64,000 nucleotides of DNA from Syntrophaceae bacterium (GTDB lineage Bacteria; Desulfobacterota; Syntrophia; Syntrophales; Smithellaceae): NCBI GenBank assembly GCA_009773315.1, contig WRPE01000008.1, positions 1 to 64,000 on the forward strand, read 5' to 3'. The stretch's first letter is position 1. Each line of letters begins with the position of its first letter. The notes under the pieces were generated by a model. The model had not been told where the DNA came from, did not search any database, and saw nothing but the letters and a program-made list of their open reading frames with translations. Positions 51,751-62,097 of this stretch are shown here, one piece after another. The position numbers and the translations under genes were made by a program.

Positions 51751-52602
51751 ATGACGATTCGTGACATTATTTCCGAAACAACTATTAAACTGGAAGCCGT
51801 GGGGATTCCTTCGGCCAGACTGGACGCGGAAGTTCTGTTGGCTTTTTGTCTGAACTGCGACCGGTTGGAATTTATCAAGAATCCTGACAGACCACTAAGC
51901 AACACTCAAATGACGGCCTTCCAAAAACTTCTCGACAGACGATTACGCTTCGAGCCGGTCGCCTACATTACCGGACGCAAGGCCTTCTGGTCCTTCACAC
52001 TGGAAGTCAATCATGACGTGCTGATTCCCCGGCCCGATACGGAAGTGATTGTCGAAGAAGCGCTCGCCGTCTGCCGGACTCAGGCTTTCAACCAGCGACG
52101 TATTTTGGATATCGGTACGGGCAGCGGTGCGATTGCACTGGCCTTGGCCAAAGAAATTCCCAAGGCACAAATCACAGCCACCGACATTTCGGCGGCGGCG
52201 CTGAAACTGGCCCAAAAAAATGCCCTCGCTCTGGAACTGCAAAATTCGATTACCTTCCTTCAGGGTGATTTATTTGAACAGGTTCATGGCGAATTTAATA
52301 TGATCGTTTCCAATCCGCCCTATATCGGAACCGAGGAATATGAGACGCTCGCCGCCGGCGTTAAAGATTATGAGCCACGCGAGGCGCTCCTGTCCGGACA
52401 AACAGGTCTGGAATTTTACGAAAAATTAATATATCAGGCACATAGCCATCTTACAGAAAATGGCTGGCTTTTGCTCGAAATCGGCGCTAAACAGGGCAAA
52501 AGTGTGCGCGCCATCATGGCAAATTCCTGTTTTTATGATCGTATTGATGTGCGCGCTGATTACGCGGGACATTCGCGCGTAATCAAAGGAAGGAGAAAAT
52601 AA
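51751..52602 (+). CDS. prmC: Release factor glutamine methyltransferase
   Basis: 283 residues. An N-terminal helical domain (about 1-75) recognises the release factor, followed by a SAM-dependent methyltransferase with ILDIGTGSGAIALALAKEIP and the catalytic motif VSNPPYI. PRPDTEVIVEEAL is a further family mark. It methylates the GGQ glutamine of RF1/RF2. It directly precedes murA with no gap between stop and start codons, so they are coupled. prfA itself is not in the window. Confidence 0.95.
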   Translation: MTIRDIISETTIKLEAVGIPSARLDAEVLLAFCLNCDRLEFIKNPDRPLSNTQMTAFQKLLDRRLRFEPVAYITGRKAFWSFTLEVNHDVLIPRPDTEVIVEEALAVCRTQAFNQRRILDIGTGSGAIALALAKEIPKAQITATDISAAALKLAQKNALALELQNSITFLQGDLFEQVHGEFNMIVSNPPYIGTEEYETLAAGVKDYEPREALLSGQTGLEFYEKLIYQAHSHLTENGWLLLEIGAKQGKSVRAIMANSCFYDRIDVRADYAGHSRVIKGRRK

Positions 52603-53853
52603 GTGGATAAAATAGTCGTTCACGGCGGTAAACCGCTCCATGGAGATGTTCAGATCAGCGGCGCGAAAAACGCCGCTTTGCCGGTTCTGACGGCGGCGCT
52701 GCTGACGGAAGAAACGTGTACGTTTCATAACATTCCCGATCTGGTCGATATCAAAACCACCTATAAGCTTTTAAGAAATATGGGTGTGGAAATTGAAGGC
52801 GACAGCACCGTGCAAATCAGCGCTGATAAAATAATAAACAGCGTCGCCCCCTATGATCTCGTCAAAACGATGCGCGCCTCCATATTGGTTCTGGGTCCGC
52901 TTGTGGCGCGTATGGGCAAGGCCCGAGTGTCCCTGCCGGGCGGTTGCGCCATCGGCGCAAGGCCGGTTAACCTGCACATTAAAGCGCTCCAGGATATGGG
53001 CGCTTCCGTAGAATTGCGCGGTGGTTATATCGAAGCGGCGGCGGATAGACTGAAAGGCGCCAATATTTATTTTGATCTGCCGACGGTCACCGGCACGGAA
53101 AACATCATGATGGCGGCCACGCTGGCGGAAGGCACTACGGTGCTCAACAATGCCGCGCGGGAACCGGAAATCGTCAACCTGGCGGATGTTCTTAAAGGTA
53201 TGGGCGCCAGAATCAGCGGCGCGGGAACGGATGTCATCACGATCAACGGCGTAACATCATTGAAAGGGACTGAAGCGTCCATTATTCCTGATCGCATCGA
53301 AGCCGGCACGTTTATGATCGCCGCCGGAATGACGCAGGGTGAAATCAATGTGTTAGGCTGCAACCCCCAGCATCTGGAAGCTCTGATCAACAAATTGCGC
53401 GACACCGGTATGAAAATCACACCTATTGACGGAGGACTGAAAGTCGCCGCCGGTCATAAAATCCATAGTGTTGATGTGAAAACCCTTCCCCACCCCGGCT
53501 TTCCCACAGATTTGCAGGCGCAGATCATGGCTTACATGTCCATTGGCGGCGGCCTTTCCGTAATTACGGAAACGGTTTTTGAAAACCGTTTCATGCATGT
53601 GAGCGAACTCATGCGCATGGGTGCGGACATCACAATTCAGGGCGGCAGCGCCATTGTCCGGGGCGTACCGACGCTCTACGGCGCGCAAATCATGGCCACG
53701 GATTTGCGGGCTTCCGCCTCGCTGATTCTGGCGGCGCTGGTTGCCCAAGGGACAACTGAAATTTCAAGGGTTTATCATATTGATCGCGGTTATGAGAATA
53801 TTGAAAAGAAATTCTCCGCGCTGGGTGCGGACATACAAAGGATGAAACAATAA
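52603..53853 (+). CDS. murA: UDP-N-acetylglucosamine 1-carboxyvinyltransferase
   Basis: 416 residues, full length. It starts with GTG directly after the prmC stop; GGAGG lies just upstream inside prmC. The first committed step of peptidoglycan synthesis, transferring enolpyruvate from PEP to UDP-GlcNAc. Catalytic Cys is in [15 protein letters not shown] (fosfomycin target), with [16 protein letters not shown] at the N-terminus. Its stop is one base before the hisD start. Confidence 0.96.
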
Positions 53854-53854
53854 A

Positions 53855-55156
53855 ATGAAAATTATTCGAGCCGACGCAACGGAATTTCGTGATTTTTTTC
53901 AAGAATTACGGCGGCGAGGCGGTGCGTTTACGCCGGATCTGCTGGCAAACGTGGCCCAGATCATTCACGATGTTTCCGTGCGCGGCGATGAAGCGCTTTT
54001 TCATTATACCAAAAAGTTTGACGGCCACGACTTGATCGCGGCGACGCTCGAAGTAACAGACGCGGAAAGAAAAGAAGCGCTGGCCAAAGTAAAAACGCAG
54101 GACCGGGACGTGATCCGACTTGCCGCCCAGCGGATTGAAAAATATCATCGCCACCAAATCGCTTTGGGATATTCGATTGTTGATGAAGACGGCATGGAAT
54201 TGGGCCAGCGGATACTGCCCTTGCAACGGGCAGGCATTTACGCGCCCGGCGGCAAGGCTTTTTATCCATCCACGCTGCTGATGGCGGCCATTCCGGCGCG
54301 TATTGCAGGTGTCCAGGAAATCATCCTGGCAAGCCCCGTGAAGGACGGTCAACTCAATCCGCTCATTGCCGCAGCGGCCGACGTCGCCGGGGTTAACCGC
54401 ATCTTCAAGATCGGTGGCGCTCAGGCTATCGCCGCACTGGCCTATGGAACACAAACTATTCCGCGCGTGGATAAAATTGTTGGACCGGGCAATGCCTATG
54501 TCGCCGCGGCCAAGAAACTCGTATTCGGACAGGTCGCCATTGATATGATCGCCGGCCCCAGCGAAGTGGTGATCATTGCCGATCAAACCGCCAATCCCGC
54601 TTATGCGGCGGCGGATATGCTGGCGCAGGCCGAGCATGATGAAATGGCGGCGGCTGTTTTATTCACGCCCTATCCCGATCTGGCCGCTCGCGTGGCGGGA
54701 GAAATCGAAAAGCAGTTGCAGAAGCTCCCCAAGAAAGGGATCATTGAAAAATCTCTGGCTCAGTACGGCGCGATCATCATCACATCCGGCATCGGTCAGG
54801 CCGTGGAGCTGACCAATCTCTTCGCGCCGGAGCATCTGGAGCTGATGGTGGAAAATCCGAAGGATATTTTAGGACAAATTCGCAACGCCGGTTCTGTTTT
54901 TCTGGGATCCTACACACCGGAAGCCTTAGGCGACTACATCGCCGGGAGCAATCATATTTTGCCCACGGAAGGCACGGCACGGTTTTCATCCCCCCTGGGT
55001 GTTTATGATTTCTACAAGCGGATGAGCGTCCTGTCTTTTACCCAGGCGGCTTTCGAGAAGCTATCCTTGCAAACACGGCATTTTGCCCAAATGGAAGGTT
55101 TGGACGCACACGCCAATTCGGTGCACGTGCGCAGCACACCCGGTAAAGATGAGTGA
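53855..55156 (+). CDS. hisD: Histidinol dehydrogenase
   Basis: 433 residues. It oxidises histidinol to histidine in two NAD+ steps. Typical segments are QRAGIYAPGGKAFYPSTLLM, VDKIVGPGNAYVAAAKKLV, DMIAGPSEVVIIAD, QAEHDEMAAAVLFT (zinc/active-site Glu-His-Asp), NLFAPEHLEL and GSNHILPT. It is the third gene of prmC-murA-hisD; no other his gene is present nearby. After it the gene density drops and an accessory region begins. Confidence 0.96.
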   Translation: MKIIRADATEFRDFFQELRRRGGAFTPDLLANVAQIIHDVSVRGDEALFHYTKKFDGHDLIAATLEVTDAERKEALAKVKTQDRDVIRLAAQRIEKYHRHQIALGYSIVDEDGMELGQRILPLQRAGIYAPGGKAFYPSTLLMAAIPARIAGVQEIILASPVKDGQLNPLIAAAADVAGVNRIFKIGGAQAIAALAYGTQTIPRVDKIVGPGNAYVAAAKKLVFGQVAIDMIAGPSEVVIIADQTANPAYAAADMLAQAEHDEMAAAVLFTPYPDLAARVAGEIEKQLQKLPKKGIIEKSLAQYGAIIITSGIGQAVELTNLFAPEHLELMVENPKDILGQIRNAGSVFLGSYTPEALGDYIAGSNHILPTEGTARFSSPLGVYDFYKRMSVLSFTQAAFEKLSLQTRHFAQMEGLDAHANSVHVRSTPGKDE

Positions 55157-55373: not shown

Positions 55374-55402
55374 TTGACATACAAGACCAACAATTTTATA
55401 AT
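55374..55402 (+). promoter_or_regulatory. Consensus sigma-70 promoter upstream of the carbon-nitrogen hydrolase
   Basis: TTGACA (55374-55379), exactly 17 bases, then TATAAT (55397-55402): a perfect match to consensus at ideal spacing, with an AT-rich upstream stretch. The leader to the ATG is about 135 nt and contains the inverted repeat CTTATAA/TTATAAG (55424-55430, 55443-55449). Confidence 0.8.
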
Positions 55403-56862: not shown

Positions 56863-56902
56863 ATTTAGTATGATATAGATATTCCAAAAGATGGAGGGAG
56901 AA

Positions 56903-57652
56903 ATGAAAAAGAAAGCTGATACACCTGAAATAGTCTCAGCGGATGATGCTGTTCCTATCGATAAGTACGCTGCAAAAGCAATGAATTATCTAAAGAATAG
57001 AACCGTAATGATAATGAACGGTGACACACCGGTAAATTTCTCGTCTGATAATACCATTGTGGCCTATCGCCTGGAAACAGCAATTACAGATATGCTGCGT
57101 AGTACGGCCAACAAATTGAAGGCCACTATCTGTTGGGCGGATTGTGTCAGTGATTTAATCGCCGTTCCGTCTTTCATGAATATCATTAATCCCTTGGACT
57201 TGACGGAAGAAGAAACAGACGAGATATTCCAATGGTTTTCATTTTTGGAAGAAGCCGGTGACCCGAACTCCCTATGTGTTCTTTTCACATCAGCGCCACC
57301 GTTTAAAATACCCCCCAAAGTCGAAAAATACATTCTCAGAACACCGGAATTCATTGACGACGATTATCTGAAATTAAAGATCCTGAACAAAAAGGCAGCG
57401 GCCACCCGGCATAACAAACAGCATCGTGGTTATGACCGTAAAATTTTTCGTCTTCTCAAAATCATGAAGGTGCTTAAATCAGAAGGTATCATGTATGTTG
57501 AGGACATGCGCAACGAGTTCAGCATCTCCCCGAAGACCGTCCGCAGAGATATTGAGCTGTGGAATGCCTTGGGGGAAGTCATCGAATATGACCGAAATAA
57601 AAAGGGTTATGTCCTTGCCTATTCGGATGGCGTCGTCTATGATGTCACCTAA
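56903..57652 (+). CDS. DeoR-type winged-helix protein with unknown N-terminal domain
   Basis: 249 residues from the ATG at 56903 (GGAGGG upstream). Residues about 185-245 are a DeoR-like helix-turn-helix: KIMKVLKSEGIMYVEDMRNEFSISPKTVRRDIELWNALG, then a wing with VIEYDRNKKGYVL. The first 170 residues are not recognised. They look alpha/beta (TVMIMNGDTPVNF, TICWADCVSDLIAVP, SLCVLFTSAPPFK) and could be a sensor or an ATPase-like domain. It probably represses its own operon through the palindrome at 56847. The sugar-phosphate domain of ordinary DeoR proteins is absent. Confidence 0.75.
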   Translation: MKKKADTPEIVSADDAVPIDKYAAKAMNYLKNRTVMIMNGDTPVNFSSDNTIVAYRLETAITDMLRSTANKLKATICWADCVSDLIAVPSFMNIINPLDLTEEETDEIFQWFSFLEEAGDPNSLCVLFTSAPPFKIPPKVEKYILRTPEFIDDDYLKLKILNKKAAATRHNKQHRGYDRKIFRLLKIMKVLKSEGIMYVEDMRNEFSISPKTVRRDIELWNALGEVIEYDRNKKGYVLAYSDGVVYDVT

Positions 57653-57684
57653 AAAGGTAAATAAATAAATCAAGGAGGCTGGAT

Positions 57685-57951
57685 ATGGCAAACGGTGGAC
57701 ATATCAGTTGTGCAAAGTGTACCTATAGCAGGCTCAAGCCAGGGAAATGCGACATCTGGGGAATCGAGATCAGCGGCTTCCTTCTATGTCGGGCATTCCG
57801 ATCTCCTGGCCAGTCTCATACGGCAGCAAGAAAAGAATTCAAAATGCTCAACAAACTGAAACCAGGGGTTGTATATGCAGTTGATAACAGCGTTGTGGCC
57901 ATAGGCAACCCGGAGCCGGTTTTTCAAATTGTGGAAGTTGGAAACCATTAA
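57685..57951 (+). CDS. Small four-cysteine protein
   Basis: 88 residues with AAGGAGG before the ATG. The N-terminal half has CxxC at 9/12 and cysteines at about 22 and 35 (CAKCTYSR, GKCDIWG, FLLCRAF), spacing suited to a zinc ribbon or Fe-S site. The C-terminal half is beta-rich (GVVYAVDNSVVAIGNPEPVFQIVEV). No family recognised. It is 32 bases after the regulator and 16 before the nuclease-like gene, so clearly part of the operon. Confidence 0.6.
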   Translation: MANGGHISCAKCTYSRLKPGKCDIWGIEISGFLLCRAFRSPGQSHTAARKEFKMLNKLKPGVVYAVDNSVVAIGNPEPVFQIVEVGNH

Positions 57952-57967
57952 ATTTGAGGATGATACT

Positions 57968-58966
57968 ATGACTGTAAGGTATGAGCGCTCATTGAATAAA
58001 GAAAGTGTAGATTTACTGAAGTCGACTGGGAAATTGAATTTTCTGATTGATGGATACGAGACATGGATTCCAGACGATCCGAATGCTTTCGATATTCATC
58101 TCAGAGAGAAAAATGAAATCATGATCTATCACGGAGGCACCCGTCTCATCACAATCAGCTTGTCTAATGACTCCGTAAAATTATCTACAGATAAGTCATA
58201 TAGTAGAGTGGGCGTTTCCTACAGTACACTCATGAGAGAATGGGCTTTCGATGATTTAGTTAAAAAACAGAAAGAATATAAAGATTATCTTATTGAGGCT
58301 GCGAGAATTGCACAGAATAAATTTTATGATAACAAGAAAGAGGGATGGTGGTCTAATAGGCTCAGTCTTTATTTTGGGAAAAATTGGGATGTTGAAAAAG
58401 AATGGTTGATTTTTGATCGTGAGGCCGTCTTGGGGTTTAAAAAACGCGATGAAAAAAGCATGTTCTATGAAAAAATGAAAGAGAAATATCTCGTCATCCG
58501 ATCTAAATTCAGAAAAGATAATCCGAAAATATGGGGGAAGGAAGATTTAAGAAAATCCTTTGGTGATGAATTGGATTTCCTTGCGATCGGACCGGCAAAA
58601 GAACTTTTTTGTATTGAGTTGAAGCATGGAAGCTATACCTCCGGGATTTATTGGGGGCCATTGCAGGTATCAGTTTATAAAGATGCATTTTATGAAGTTG
58701 TTTCATCTATCTCTGACAACATTAAGTGTCTCGTTAAACAAAAGATTGATCTCGGATTACTTCCCGTAGAGGCAACAAAGTGGCTCCCAGATGGTAAATT
58801 CAAAGAAGTCAAAGCTATTGTCGCAATCGCTGATTTTAACAAAAAGAGTAGCAGCAAGGATAAGATTAAGAAAGTTCAAGATGAACTTAGGAATAGAGGT
58901 TCGTACTATGTGTCTGTCGCCAAGATTGAAGAAAATGGAAGTGGCCTGAACGTAATAATATCATGA
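57968..58966 (+). CDS. PD-(D/E)XK nuclease-like protein
   Basis: 332 residues from the ATG at 57968 (GAGGA upstream). The C-terminal third carries a PD-(D/E)XK core: Asp203 in DELDFLAIG, Glu217-x-Lys219 in FCIELKHG, and a following Gln233-xxx-Tyr237 (GPLQVSVYKDAFY) like the QxxxY motif of RecB-type nucleases. The first ~180 residues are not recognised; a beta-rich start leads to a charged helical middle (KKQKEYKDYLIEAARIAQNKFY). It probably cuts DNA. Its TGA stop overlaps the next start in ATGA, so the two proteins are likely made in equal amounts. Confidence 0.7.
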   Translation: MTVRYERSLNKESVDLLKSTGKLNFLIDGYETWIPDDPNAFDIHLREKNEIMIYHGGTRLITISLSNDSVKLSTDKSYSRVGVSYSTLMREWAFDDLVKKQKEYKDYLIEAARIAQNKFYDNKKEGWWSNRLSLYFGKNWDVEKEWLIFDREAVLGFKKRDEKSMFYEKMKEKYLVIRSKFRKDNPKIWGKEDLRKSFGDELDFLAIGPAKELFCIELKHGSYTSGIYWGPLQVSVYKDAFYEVVSSISDNIKCLVKQKIDLGLLPVEATKWLPDGKFKEVKAIVAIADFNKKSSSKDKIKKVQDELRNRGSYYVSVAKIEENGSGLNVIIS

Positions 58967-60276
58967 ATATCATAATTCACCGCGGTACCCATGAAATCGG
59001 CGGTTCTTGTATCGAAATATCTTCCGGGGATCATCGGATCATTCTGGACTTAGGAATGCCGCTGATGACCAAGGATGGCGGTATTTTGGATCAAGCATCG
59101 ATCGAGACTCCATCTATTGAAAACGGCATCCTGCCAAATGTTAAGGGTTTGTATGCCGATCAGGTTCCTTCGGTTACGGCGGTGATTCTCTCACATGCCC
59201 ACTTGGATCATTACGGGCTGATGAGCCTGGTGCATCCTGAAATACCTATTTATCTAAGCCGGGAAACCAAGGCCCTTATCGAGGTCGGAAACATCTTTTA
59301 TACATTCAAGCAGACGAAAAAAAGTCGAATGGATAACTGTCAGACCTTCGACCATCTGATGCCACCATTCAAGGTAGGTCCCTTTACTATCACGCCTTTT
59401 CTTATGGATCATTCGGCTTTCGGAGCATCGTCTTTGCTGATTGAGGCTGAAGGCAAAAAGATATTTTATACCGGAGATCTTCGTGGTCATGGCCGGAAAG
59501 CCATGCTCTTCGAGGACCTCATAAAGAACCCCATTCAAAATGTCGATTGCCTTCTGATGGAAGGCACAACCCTGGGTGGTGAACACAATGTAGGGTATGA
59601 AACCGAAGAAGCCGTTGAGGGTGCGCTGTACAGTCTTTTTGCGTTGCAGGAAGATGCTTCATTTGTTATGTCAGCGGGCAGCAACATTGACCGCCTCGTG
59701 TCCATTTACCAAGCTGCGTTACAGGCAAAGAAGATACTGGTGGTCGATCTTTATCAGTTTTATCTACTGAAACAGATCAAGGATTTTCCCCACGGTTTGC
59801 CGCTGTATTCTGATAAAAACTTGAGGATTCTTTATCTTATCGAACACGCGAAGACGATAGCAAATCAAGTTAATGAGCATCTTCTCTACAAATGGAAATC
59901 TCTTAAGATTGAAAAAGAGGAGATATTGGCACAGCGTAAAGACATGGTTCTCAGGATACCTCTCAGTATCATGAAGATAATGGCTAAGGGAATGGAAAAG
60001 GAGAGGCCTTTGCAGAAGGCCAGTTTCATCTATTCCATGTGGTCCGGCTATTTAAAAAGCAATCCGAAACTCAAAGAGTTTACGGATCGATACAAAATCC
60101 CGATGAAGATCATACACACAAGCGGTCACGCATACCTTCATGATCTGAAGCGATTGGCAGATGCTCTGAAGCCTCGGATGATTGTACCCATTCATACATT
60201 ATCTGGCGATGAATTTAAGAACCATTTTGCCAATGTCTGTCGTTTTGATGATGGTGTGCCTTTTGAGATCAACTGA
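58963..60276 (+). CDS. RNase J-like metallo-beta-lactamase/beta-CASP protein
   Basis: 437 residues. The MBL metal motifs are all present: HAHLDH at 78-83, His150 (MDHSAFG), Asp172 (YTGDLRGHG) and the C-terminal His411 (VPIHT). A beta-CASP insert at about 220-390 includes SGHAYLHDLKRL (His389), so it belongs with RNase J/CPSF-type nucleases rather than lactamases. The N-terminus RGTHEIGGSCIEI matches RNase J-like proteins. At 437 residues it lacks the ~100-residue C-terminal domain of true RNase J. It would act on RNA or single-stranded DNA. The start overlaps the PD-(D/E)XK gene by 4 bases. Confidence 0.85.
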   Translation: MNIIIHRGTHEIGGSCIEISSGDHRIILDLGMPLMTKDGGILDQASIETPSIENGILPNVKGLYADQVPSVTAVILSHAHLDHYGLMSLVHPEIPIYLSRETKALIEVGNIFYTFKQTKKSRMDNCQTFDHLMPPFKVGPFTITPFLMDHSAFGASSLLIEAEGKKIFYTGDLRGHGRKAMLFEDLIKNPIQNVDCLLMEGTTLGGEHNVGYETEEAVEGALYSLFALQEDASFVMSAGSNIDRLVSIYQAALQAKKILVVDLYQFYLLKQIKDFPHGLPLYSDKNLRILYLIEHAKTIANQVNEHLLYKWKSLKIEKEEILAQRKDMVLRIPLSIMKIMAKGMEKERPLQKASFIYSMWSGYLKSNPKLKEFTDRYKIPMKIIHTSGHAYLHDLKRLADALKPRMIVPIHTLSGDEFKNHFANVCRFDDGVPFEIN

Positions 60277-60326
60277 CCAATGACGGAGATAATATTTTCA
60301 TGAGCGAAATTGAATTCTGAATAGGT

Positions 60327-60614
60327 GTGGATCTGGATGGGACCCTGGCCGAATATCATGGCTGGATCGGAATCCATCATATCGGGAAAGCGATTACCCC
60401 GATGGTTGAACGTGTTCAGCGCTGGATTGGCGAAGGGAAGACGGTCAAGATCTTTACCGCGAGGGCTTGCGAAGGAACGGCAGCGACGGAATTCATTCAC
60501 GCCTGGCTTGACAAACAAGGGCTCCCAAAACTCGAAGTCACCAATGTCAAAGACTTCGGCATGACGGAGTTGTGGGATGATCGCTGCATTTCAATAGGAA
60601 CGAATACGGGATAA
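60327..60614 (+). CDS. Small HAD-family phosphatase, N-terminus interrupted by in-frame TGA
   Basis: A GTG start gives 95 residues beginning MDLDGTLAEYHGW, which contains HAD motif I (DxD), then FTARACEG (motif II) and VTNVKDFGMTELWDDR (metal-binding acidic motif). In frame upstream is an ATG at 60300: MSEIEF, then TGA (60318), then IGVDLDGT. The first beta strand of the fold needs those upstream residues, so the gene may carry a nonsense mutation, use readthrough, or initiate late at GTG. Relatives of this size occur in phages and islands. It is spaced 23 bases after the MBL gene if the ATG counts. Confidence 0.6.
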   Translation: MDLDGTLAEYHGWIGIHHIGKAITPMVERVQRWIGEGKTVKIFTARACEGTAATEFIHAWLDKQGLPKLEVTNVKDFGMTELWDDRCISIGTNTG

Positions 60615-60645: not shown

Positions 60646-62097
60646 ATGACGAACGCAAAAGCCGATTTTGTTCACCTTCATGTTCACACAACATATAGCC
60701 TCCTTGACAGCACGCTTCGTCTTAATGATCTCTTTAATAAGGCGAAGGAATATCAGATGCTGGCTATCGCCATGACCGATCATGGCAATCTCTTTGGTGC
60801 TATCGAATTTTATCAGCACGCCGAAAAAGCCGGGATCAAACCCATTATTGGCTGCGAGCTGTATGTCGCCCCGAAGAGCCGATTTGACAAGTCTTCCTCC
60901 AGTATTGAAGAATCTTCTCATCATCTTGTGGTTCTCGTCAAAAACATGCAGGGATATAAAAACCTCCTGAAACTAACCACGGCAGGTTACCTTGAGGGTT
61001 TCTACTATCACCCCCGGGTGGATAAGGAACTCCTTCAGGATCATCATGAAGGACTTATCGCTACAAGCGCTTGCCTGCATGGAGAAGTTGCTTCATATCT
61101 CATGAAAGGCGATCGCAATGCCGCCATAAAAGCTGCCCGTGAATACCAGGAAATATTTGGTGCGGGGAACTTCTACCTGGAAATCATGGAAAACGGTCTG
61201 CCTGAACAAAGGGTTGTCAATGAAGGCATAATGGATATCAGTCGTCTTCTTTCTATTCCTGTTGTCGCCACCAATGACTGTCATTATCTTCAGGCAGATG
61301 ATGAGGAGGCCCATGACGCACTTCTTTGCATTCAGACGGGCAAGACCCTTGATGACACGGAACGGATGCACTTTGATACGGACCAGTTCTACTTCCGCTC
61401 ACCGGAGGAGATGAAGAGCCTTTTCTCTTATTGTCCCGAGGCTATCTCCAATACCGTCCTGATTGCGGACAAATGCAATCTATCTCTCGAATTAGACTGT
61501 TCCCGTCCTCCCCGAGGAAATCTTGAATACGGGGCCAACGATGGACTCAAAATGCCCGCCATCACTACAGATTTTTCTCCGGAAGGGCGTGATTACATCT
61601 TCCGGTATGTCACGGAGAAATACGGTACCGACCGGGTGGCCAAGATCATCACCTTCAGAAAAATGAGGGCGAAATCTGCCATACGCTACGTTGGTCGCGC
61701 CATGAGTCTTCCCCATGCAGATGTTGACGCCATCGCAAAAATGGTTCCTGATGTTCTGAATCTCTCTCTCGAAGACGCTTTGAACATGGAAGATCGCCTG
61801 AAAGAAGCAGCAAGAAAGAGCGAGAAGATACAAAAACTTCTATCCCTTTCATGGGCTCTGCAGGGCTTGATTATCCATTCATCCACCCATGCCATGAATA
61901 TAGTCATTTCCGATAAACCCCTTGTTGACATGGTTCCCCTATGCAAGAGCACTGAAGATGATCTTGTTACTCAGTACTCCGTTAACGACCTCAAGAACAT
62001 GGGATTTTCGATATTCAAATTTCCCCATATAGCAAGGCAAATGATTTCATATGGTAATCTTCACGTCTGTCCCTTAGAGAAAACTGAGGACTCGTAG
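60646..62097 (+). CDS. PHP-domain protein: shortened DnaE paralogue without polymerase active site
   Basis: 483 residues. Residues 1-280 are an intact DnaE-type PHP domain with all metal-ligand motifs (HLHVHTTYS at 10-18, TDHG at 44-47, CE at 70-71, CLHGE at 143-147, NDCHY at 210-214). The polymerase part is cut down: about 100 residues, including the GPGRGS region, are missing before residue 303. The catalytic PDIDIDF reads PAITTDF (Ala305, Thr307), the third Asp is Pro460, and the protein ends there, ~700 residues short of DnaE. The frame is open throughout, so it is likely a selected nuclease/phosphatase, not decay. Confidence 0.8.
   Translation: MTNAKADFVHLHVHTTYSLLDSTLRLNDLFNKAKEYQMLAIAMTDHGNLFGAIEFYQHAEKAGIKPIIGCELYVAPKSRFDKSSSSIEESSHHLVVLVKNMQGYKNLLKLTTAGYLEGFYYHPRVDKELLQDHHEGLIATSACLHGEVASYLMKGDRNAAIKAAREYQEIFGAGNFYLEIMENGLPEQRVVNEGIMDISRLLSIPVVATNDCHYLQADDEEAHDALLCIQTGKTLDDTERMHFDTDQFYFRSPEEMKSLFSYCPEAISNTVLIADKCNLSLELDCSRPPRGNLEYGANDGLKMPAITTDFSPEGRDYIFRYVTEKYGTDRVAKIITFRKMRAKSAIRYVGRAMSLPHADVDAIAKMVPDVLNLSLEDALNMEDRLKEAARKSEKIQKLLSLSWALQGLIIHSSTHAMNIVISDKPLVDMVPLCKSTEDDLVTQYSVNDLKNMGFSIFKFPHIARQMISYGNLHVCPLEKTEDS

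Follow-up and report, generated by a model that had tools for sequence, protein, structure and literature searches.

The closest described relatives of the MBL-fold protein considered here are RNase J and the other bacterial beta-CASP ribonucleases (TIGR00649; EF2904, PDB 2az4), which likewise carry motifs 1-4, motifs A-C with His at motif C, and an RMMBL end. Our protein is encoded in a stretch of 64,000 nucleotides from a Syntrophaceae bacterium (contig WRPE01000008.1 of assembly GCA_009773315.1, positions 1 to 64,000), hereafter the window, and differs from RNase J in being shorter (437 aa, compared with 470-705 aa in the matched chains), in scoring far below the curated NCBIfam cutoffs (68.4 versus 400 bits for TIGR00649; 43 versus 820 bits for NF047419) and in being tied to a PD-(D/E)XK partner. 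In type VII CRISPR-Cas, partner proteins deliver the beta-CASP effector Cas14 to its RNA target (PMC10910872), which is a likeness to the present pair; however, the window protein reaches only 37.9 bits against the Cas14 cutoff of 800, no Cas5 or Cas7 was found among the window genes scanned, and the partner here is of the PD-(D/E)XK type. An MBL nuclease with a partner is common to several defence systems, including the MBL nuclease-protease pairs of Hachiman and AVAST (PMC12799240), but those combine a ComEC-type MBL with a trypsin-like protease, whereas the window combines a beta-CASP MBL with a PD-(D/E)XK protein, the partner having been exchanged. SduA/Shedu, HamA, Can2 and NucS/EndoMS have the predicted catalytic fold and the E/D/ExK residues in common with this partner, although their PDB chains give no sequence match to it, and the partner differs from them in its probable YdhG/frataxin-like N-terminal domain and its regular association with an MBL protein. 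Against PADLOC-DB 2.0.0, the MBL protein matched only GajB, at E 0.018, which does not place it in a known system. The main text of the DefensePredictor paper presents many PD-(D/E)XK systems and no MBL (PMC13092281). Both folds are thus already known; their combination with partner exchange looks undescribed, since no account of the pair or of the exchange was found in Pfam, NCBIfam, PADLOC or the open-access literature (preprints and subscription papers apart).

In the window, a 332-aa nuclease-like protein, assigned below to partner class D, is encoded at 57968..58966 (+ strand) from an ATG start; an alternative TTG start at 57929 would lengthen it to 345 aa. Its TGA stop codon overlaps, within the tetranucleotide ATGA (58963..58966, + strand, from the ORF coordinates), the ATG start codon of the 437-aa beta-CASP MBL gene (58963..60276, + strand), whose product has an RNA-type active site as judged from Pfam, the structure match and invariant residues. 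An earlier note, made from the sequence alone, had described two coupled ORFs sharing ATGA and had named residues E217 and K219 of the nuclease and H78 and D82 of the MBL protein; both ORFs are present, and the residues lie where it placed them, within CIELKHG and HAHLDH, respectively. Its claim that the two proteins are partners is borne out by the conserved pairing, gene overlaps and fusions presented below. With a GC content of 0.371, the nuclease gene is the lowest of the genes measured (MBL gene, 0.444; murA, 0.533).

That the MBL protein is RNase J-like, as had been proposed, is upheld as a beta-CASP assignment by its Pfam matches (Lactamase_B_2, 1.5e-16; RMMBL, 2.7e-5) and by its nearest solved structures, EF2904 (2az4) and then RNase J. 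Residues D29, H78, H80, D82, H83, H150, D172 and E200, which constitute motifs 1-4 and motif A, are invariant in 94 homologues, and H385 (motif B) and H411 (motif C) show no variation across the 93 ungapped rows of these homologues; the full set of MBL motifs 1-4 and beta-CASP motifs A, B and C is therefore present. Histidine at motif C is found in RNA-processing beta-CASP enzymes and valine in DNA-processing ones (PMC3095777), and the valine typical of SNM1/Artemis-type DNA enzymes occurs in none of the 93 rows, all of which have histidine (PMC7458816, PMC3095777). In SNM1A, swapping the motif C residue left selectivity unchanged (PMC7458816). From these residues, RNA would be the expected substrate of the MBL protein, and the motif C histidine is no proof of RNA specificity. 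The idea of the earlier note that the MBL protein trims DNA ends left by the nuclease is unsupported, because the motif C residue is in the state described for RNA-processing members. Matches in E. coli plasmid OL539428 and in Enterococcus phage records were only ~25% identical, and the annotated ones lie in an ABC-transporter operon; we took them as members of the EF2904-type subfamily and excluded them.

The window nuclease gave no usable or significant match in Pfam, NCBIfam, PADLOC (0 matches in PADLOC-DB 2.0.0) or PDB sequences, and neither tblastn against plasmids and phages nor a search of viral contigs with class D returned anything usable. Its class includes five homologues at 27-30% identity, all from MBL loci, in Bacteroidota, Chlorobiota, Omnitrophota and one unclassified bacterium. 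Invariant in their alignment are N122-KKEG, D150-x-E152, D203, E217-x-K219-HG and Q233-x3-Y237, and the catalytic E...D...E-x-K of the PD-(D/E)XK superfamily is conserved in order at E125 (58340-58342, + strand), D203 (58574-58576, + strand), E217 (58616-58618, + strand) and K219 (58622-58624, + strand). This order corresponds to a PD-(D/E)XK site followed by a QxxxY element of the kind seen in RecB/Cas4-like enzymes. The predicted model of the window nuclease is only fair (pLDDT 60); most of the top structural matches of its residues 124-320 are PD-(D/E)XK proteins (SduA, Can2, HamA, Bse634I and Hjc), with a best Z of 4.8. A firmer link runs through partner class A, to which class D aligns by hhalign with a probability of 97.7% (E 1.7e-12) over residues 5-295. 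The class A model (pLDDT 87.8, pTM 0.87) matches NucS/EndoMS, XisH, HamA, PaqCI, BstEII and FokI over residues 115-300 at Z 6.1-7.8, the best being NucS (7.8), followed by XisH (7.3), HamA (7.1) and PaqCI (6.6). With Foldseek alone, neither the window model nor the class A model gave a match at E <= 0.001. The PD-(D/E)XK assignment that had been made for the C-terminal half is hence sustained by the conserved residues and by this hhalign link; an alpha-beta core of that fold in the window nuclease itself is supported through the class A relative and not directly.

The N-terminal part of the nuclease, suggested earlier to be a target-recognition domain, is most likely a YdhG/frataxin-like domain, given the hhalign tie to class A and the matches of the class A model. 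Residues 6-114 of that model resemble YdhG/DUF1801, YjbR and frataxin/CyaY (Z 5.6-7.1), with Z 7.1 for YdhG/DUF1801 and 6.1-6.9 for frataxin/CyaY, and the window model agrees weakly through its COG5646 and frataxin matches. In the window, this probable alpha/beta domain would cover approximately residues 1-110 (57968..58300, + strand). Such a domain is common to several partner classes and missing from others, which makes the recognition role doubtful. Nuclease residues 22-99 also showed a likeness (Z 3.9) to the IntS9/IntS11 C-terminal domain; this likeness was weak, was absent among the class A matches and was rejected.

The pairing itself is widely conserved. A profile search with the MBL protein identified 521 relatives, counting one genome per species, and four in viral contigs; the best 80 of the 521 together with the four viral-contig relatives, minus two near-copies, left 82 loci, most of them from metagenome-assembled genomes. 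An adjoining or fused PD-(D/E)XK-type gene is present in 76 of these 82, which span many phyla: 73 were assigned as such, and the remainder are a fused gene (L015), a fragment downstream (L017) and a gene cut by a contig end (L083); in L033, L053, L076, L086, L089 and L095, the partner was called on its motif and position. Of 74 partner genes, 65 are upstream of the MBL gene and nine downstream; 48 of the 74 overlap it, 25 by exactly 4 bp as in the window. A D...ExK motif occurs in 78/79 partner ORFs, compared with 48/253 other flanking ORFs and ~11/79 shuffles, and the pairing is far from chance. Moreover, both domains occur as single chains of 699 aa (L120), 755 aa (L183), 762 aa (L184) and 764 aa (L185). 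The nuclease-MBL pair is thus a recurrent module. These fusions, found in several genomes, would be ill suited to a toxin with a labile antidote, and complete catalytic sites are kept in both subunits; a toxin-antitoxin or addiction module of a mobile element, in which one nuclease would be toxic and the other subunit would restrain it, consequently has in our estimation only a slim chance of being the right explanation, despite the two small overlapping genes, the occurrence on plasmids and the upstream HTH regulator that it would account for. In three Dehalococcoidia loci (L039, L058 and L059), an extra gene of ~171-179 aa, common to all three, lies directly downstream of the MBL gene.

The MBL protein is the constant part of this module, and the PD-(D/E)XK partner is interchangeable, having been swapped many times across bacterial phyla, a feature that the earlier note had not recognised. 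When partners were grouped at E < 1e-10, 13 classes and a number of singletons were obtained, and mapping these classes on the MBL tree required a minimum of 36 changes across 69 loci. Even between MBL proteins that are >=70% identical, 54 of 75 pairs carry different partner classes. The window and a locus of Syntrophaceae UBA6255 (L013) illustrate this at the DNA level: they match at 78% over 57145-57920 and at 97.8% over 58971-59906, and between these flanks L013 carries a class A nuclease with no detectable DNA similarity to the class D gene of the window. Values of dS between the two loci are 0.06 for the MBL gene, 0.32 for the 88-aa gene upstream and 1.8 for the HTH gene. L013 comes from a metagenome-assembled genome, as a contig of 4.4 kb, and may be a chimeric assembly; the overall partner-exchange result is independent of it.

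The distribution of the module is patchy and mobile. The MBL family was found in 13 of 155 genomes of the class and in 14 of 395 genomes of the phylum, and the class D nuclease only in its own genome (1/395). The module is found on plasmids, and integrase genes lie near it in two genomes (G027 and G008). In another genome (L130, G021:C31), it is located directly upstream of prmC-murA-hisD, and in the window it is downstream of the same three genes (51751-55156); this placement on opposite sides suggests that their vicinity is an integration hot spot. Some of these contexts would also suit a role that serves the module's own mobile element, for instance in excision, maintenance or plasmid competition, rather than immunity, and XisH, an excision-control protein of the same fold, is among the structural matches noted above (Z 7.3). 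We consider such a role improbable, because the module turns up in numerous unrelated genomic settings and phyla, and the 25 Pfam families found most often in the flanking genes include no recombinase family. MBL loci on plasmids of Alphaproteobacteria (L003, L004, L006 and L010) have in common a different small neighbour of ~124-150 aa ('GIFW...') that adjoins the MBL gene; in L006, a class E-like nuclease ORF is also present upstream.

WYL-domain proteins or HTH regulators flank several MBL loci, and some partners resemble the PADLOC candidates PDC-S11, PDC-S02 and PDC-S18. Neighbours of the module (137 proteins) matched 234 PADLOC models compared with 24 for controls (126 proteins), a difference that is no more than suggestive of defence-rich flanks, because models rather than proteins were counted and the controls were taken from other genomes.

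The genes around the pair in the window recur in part elsewhere. A 253-aa HTH gene upstream (56891..57652, + strand), likely the regulator of the locus, consists of ~180 aa without assignment followed by a C-terminal HTH_11/DeoR-type HTH (matched by Pfam HTH_DeoR/HTH_11 and by the HTH portion of the PADLOC WYL model), and has a dN/dS of 0.16 against L013. Relatives occur in 4 of 155 class genomes and adjoin an MBL gene in three of them (the window, G071 and G027); in the fourth (G133), no MBL was recognised on the contig piece. It is followed by an 88-aa gene (57685..57951, + strand) with no family match in Pfam, PADLOC or NCBIfam, whose L013 homologue, at the same place, is 84% identical in amino acids; other loci have a different small gene here. 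The loci of G071, G027 and G008 have an HTH/WYL regulator upstream, a small gene, the MBL gene, a variable nuclease, which in these loci follows the MBL gene, and then a small HAD-like and a DnaE-like gene. A perfect sigma-70 consensus (TTGACA-17-TATAAT) lies at 55374-55402 of the window, upstream of a carbon-nitrogen hydrolase gene.

Downstream of the pair in the window is a small HAD-like (DxDGT) accessory gene (60327..60614, + strand), copies of which occur at MBL loci; its product is 91-93% identical to those of G071, G027 and G008 and 86% identical to that of G047, with a dN/dS of ~0.05 against G071 and G027. A TGA at 60318-60320, after MSEIEF, replaces the TGG of the G071 and G027 relatives, so that the window gene can only start at GTG 60327; this stop codon is either genuine or a sequencing error. 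In G047 (L156, G047:C10), a nuclease closely resembling the G071 C80 partner is accompanied by the HAD gene, with no MBL gene in the stretch read and, judging by eye, an apparent DNA methyltransferase gene upstream of the nuclease. The next gene in the window encodes a truncated DnaE-like protein of 483 aa (60646..62097, + strand) with an intact-looking PHP domain; compared with the full DnaE of the same genome (G000:C68), the PHP residues are kept, ~100 residues are missing and the polymerase catalytic aspartates of PDIDIDF and KFDFLGL are lost. This short form is present in three genomes (window 60646-62097; L121 3872-5311; L158 9139-10581) and adjoins MBL loci in G071 and G027; a degenerate version of 795 aa occupies the same position in G008. 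The conservation of the short form and its dN/dS of ~0.21 argue against a pseudogene.

The HAD-like and DnaE-like genes may serve the system as accessories and are not general to it. Recurrent phosphatase-like and PHP genes of this kind would fit an operon for repair or end processing, in which the PD-(D/E)XK protein would cut damaged or branched DNA or RNA, the beta-CASP protein would trim 5' ends, and HAD, metallophosphoesterase or PHP proteins would clean the ends. HAD-like genes adjoin partners in several loci, a metallophosphoesterase gene lies directly downstream of the MBL gene and overlaps its end on Prevotella and Cereibacter plasmids (L008 and L009), the PHP protein is under purifying selection, and a repair endonuclease, NucS/EndoMS, gives the top structural match to a partner. 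Nevertheless, end-processing genes are found in a minority of the loci, with other small DxDGT proteins adjoining partners in only four further ones (L014, L016, L035 and L088), and housekeeping repair would be less patchy, with fewer exchanges of the nuclease; we regard this explanation as unlikely, although it deserves more weight than the others considered above.

Taken together, the patchy occurrence, the location on plasmids and near integrase genes, the regulators of WYL type and the defence-rich flanks suggest that the module is a two-subunit nuclease acting against mobile elements. We lean, somewhat beyond even confidence, towards a mobile anti-phage or anti-plasmid nuclease in which the PD-(D/E)XK subunit would recognise or cut and the beta-CASP MBL subunit would be the effector, most likely acting on RNA. 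This division of labour is proposed because the exchanged subunit should carry what varies among invaders and the constant one a common output. The PD-(D/E)XK protein would be the variable subunit deciding what is recognised or cut, and would engage the nucleic acid of the invader or host nucleic acid modified by it. The beta-CASP MBL protein with its RNA-type active site, which sometimes forms one chain with its partner and when encoded separately would form a complex with it, would then be activated or positioned and degrade RNA at that site or generally. With confidence slightly short of even, we further propose that the pair represents an undescribed, phylum-spanning immune module with an RNA-type beta-CASP protein as universal effector and interchangeable PD-(D/E)XK proteins defining the target, to which Syntrophaceae would have added a DnaE mimic that bears a PHP domain and is catalytically dead; this mimic might be a decoy or an additional nuclease.

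The window and L013, with near-identical MBL genes and different nucleases, provide a ready-made pair of constructs for asking whether the partner sets the target. If confirmed, the module would be a two-part nuclease system that is widespread and uses RNase J-like chemistry, and its natural record of partner exchange would show which surfaces serve compatibility between the subunits and which serve specificity.
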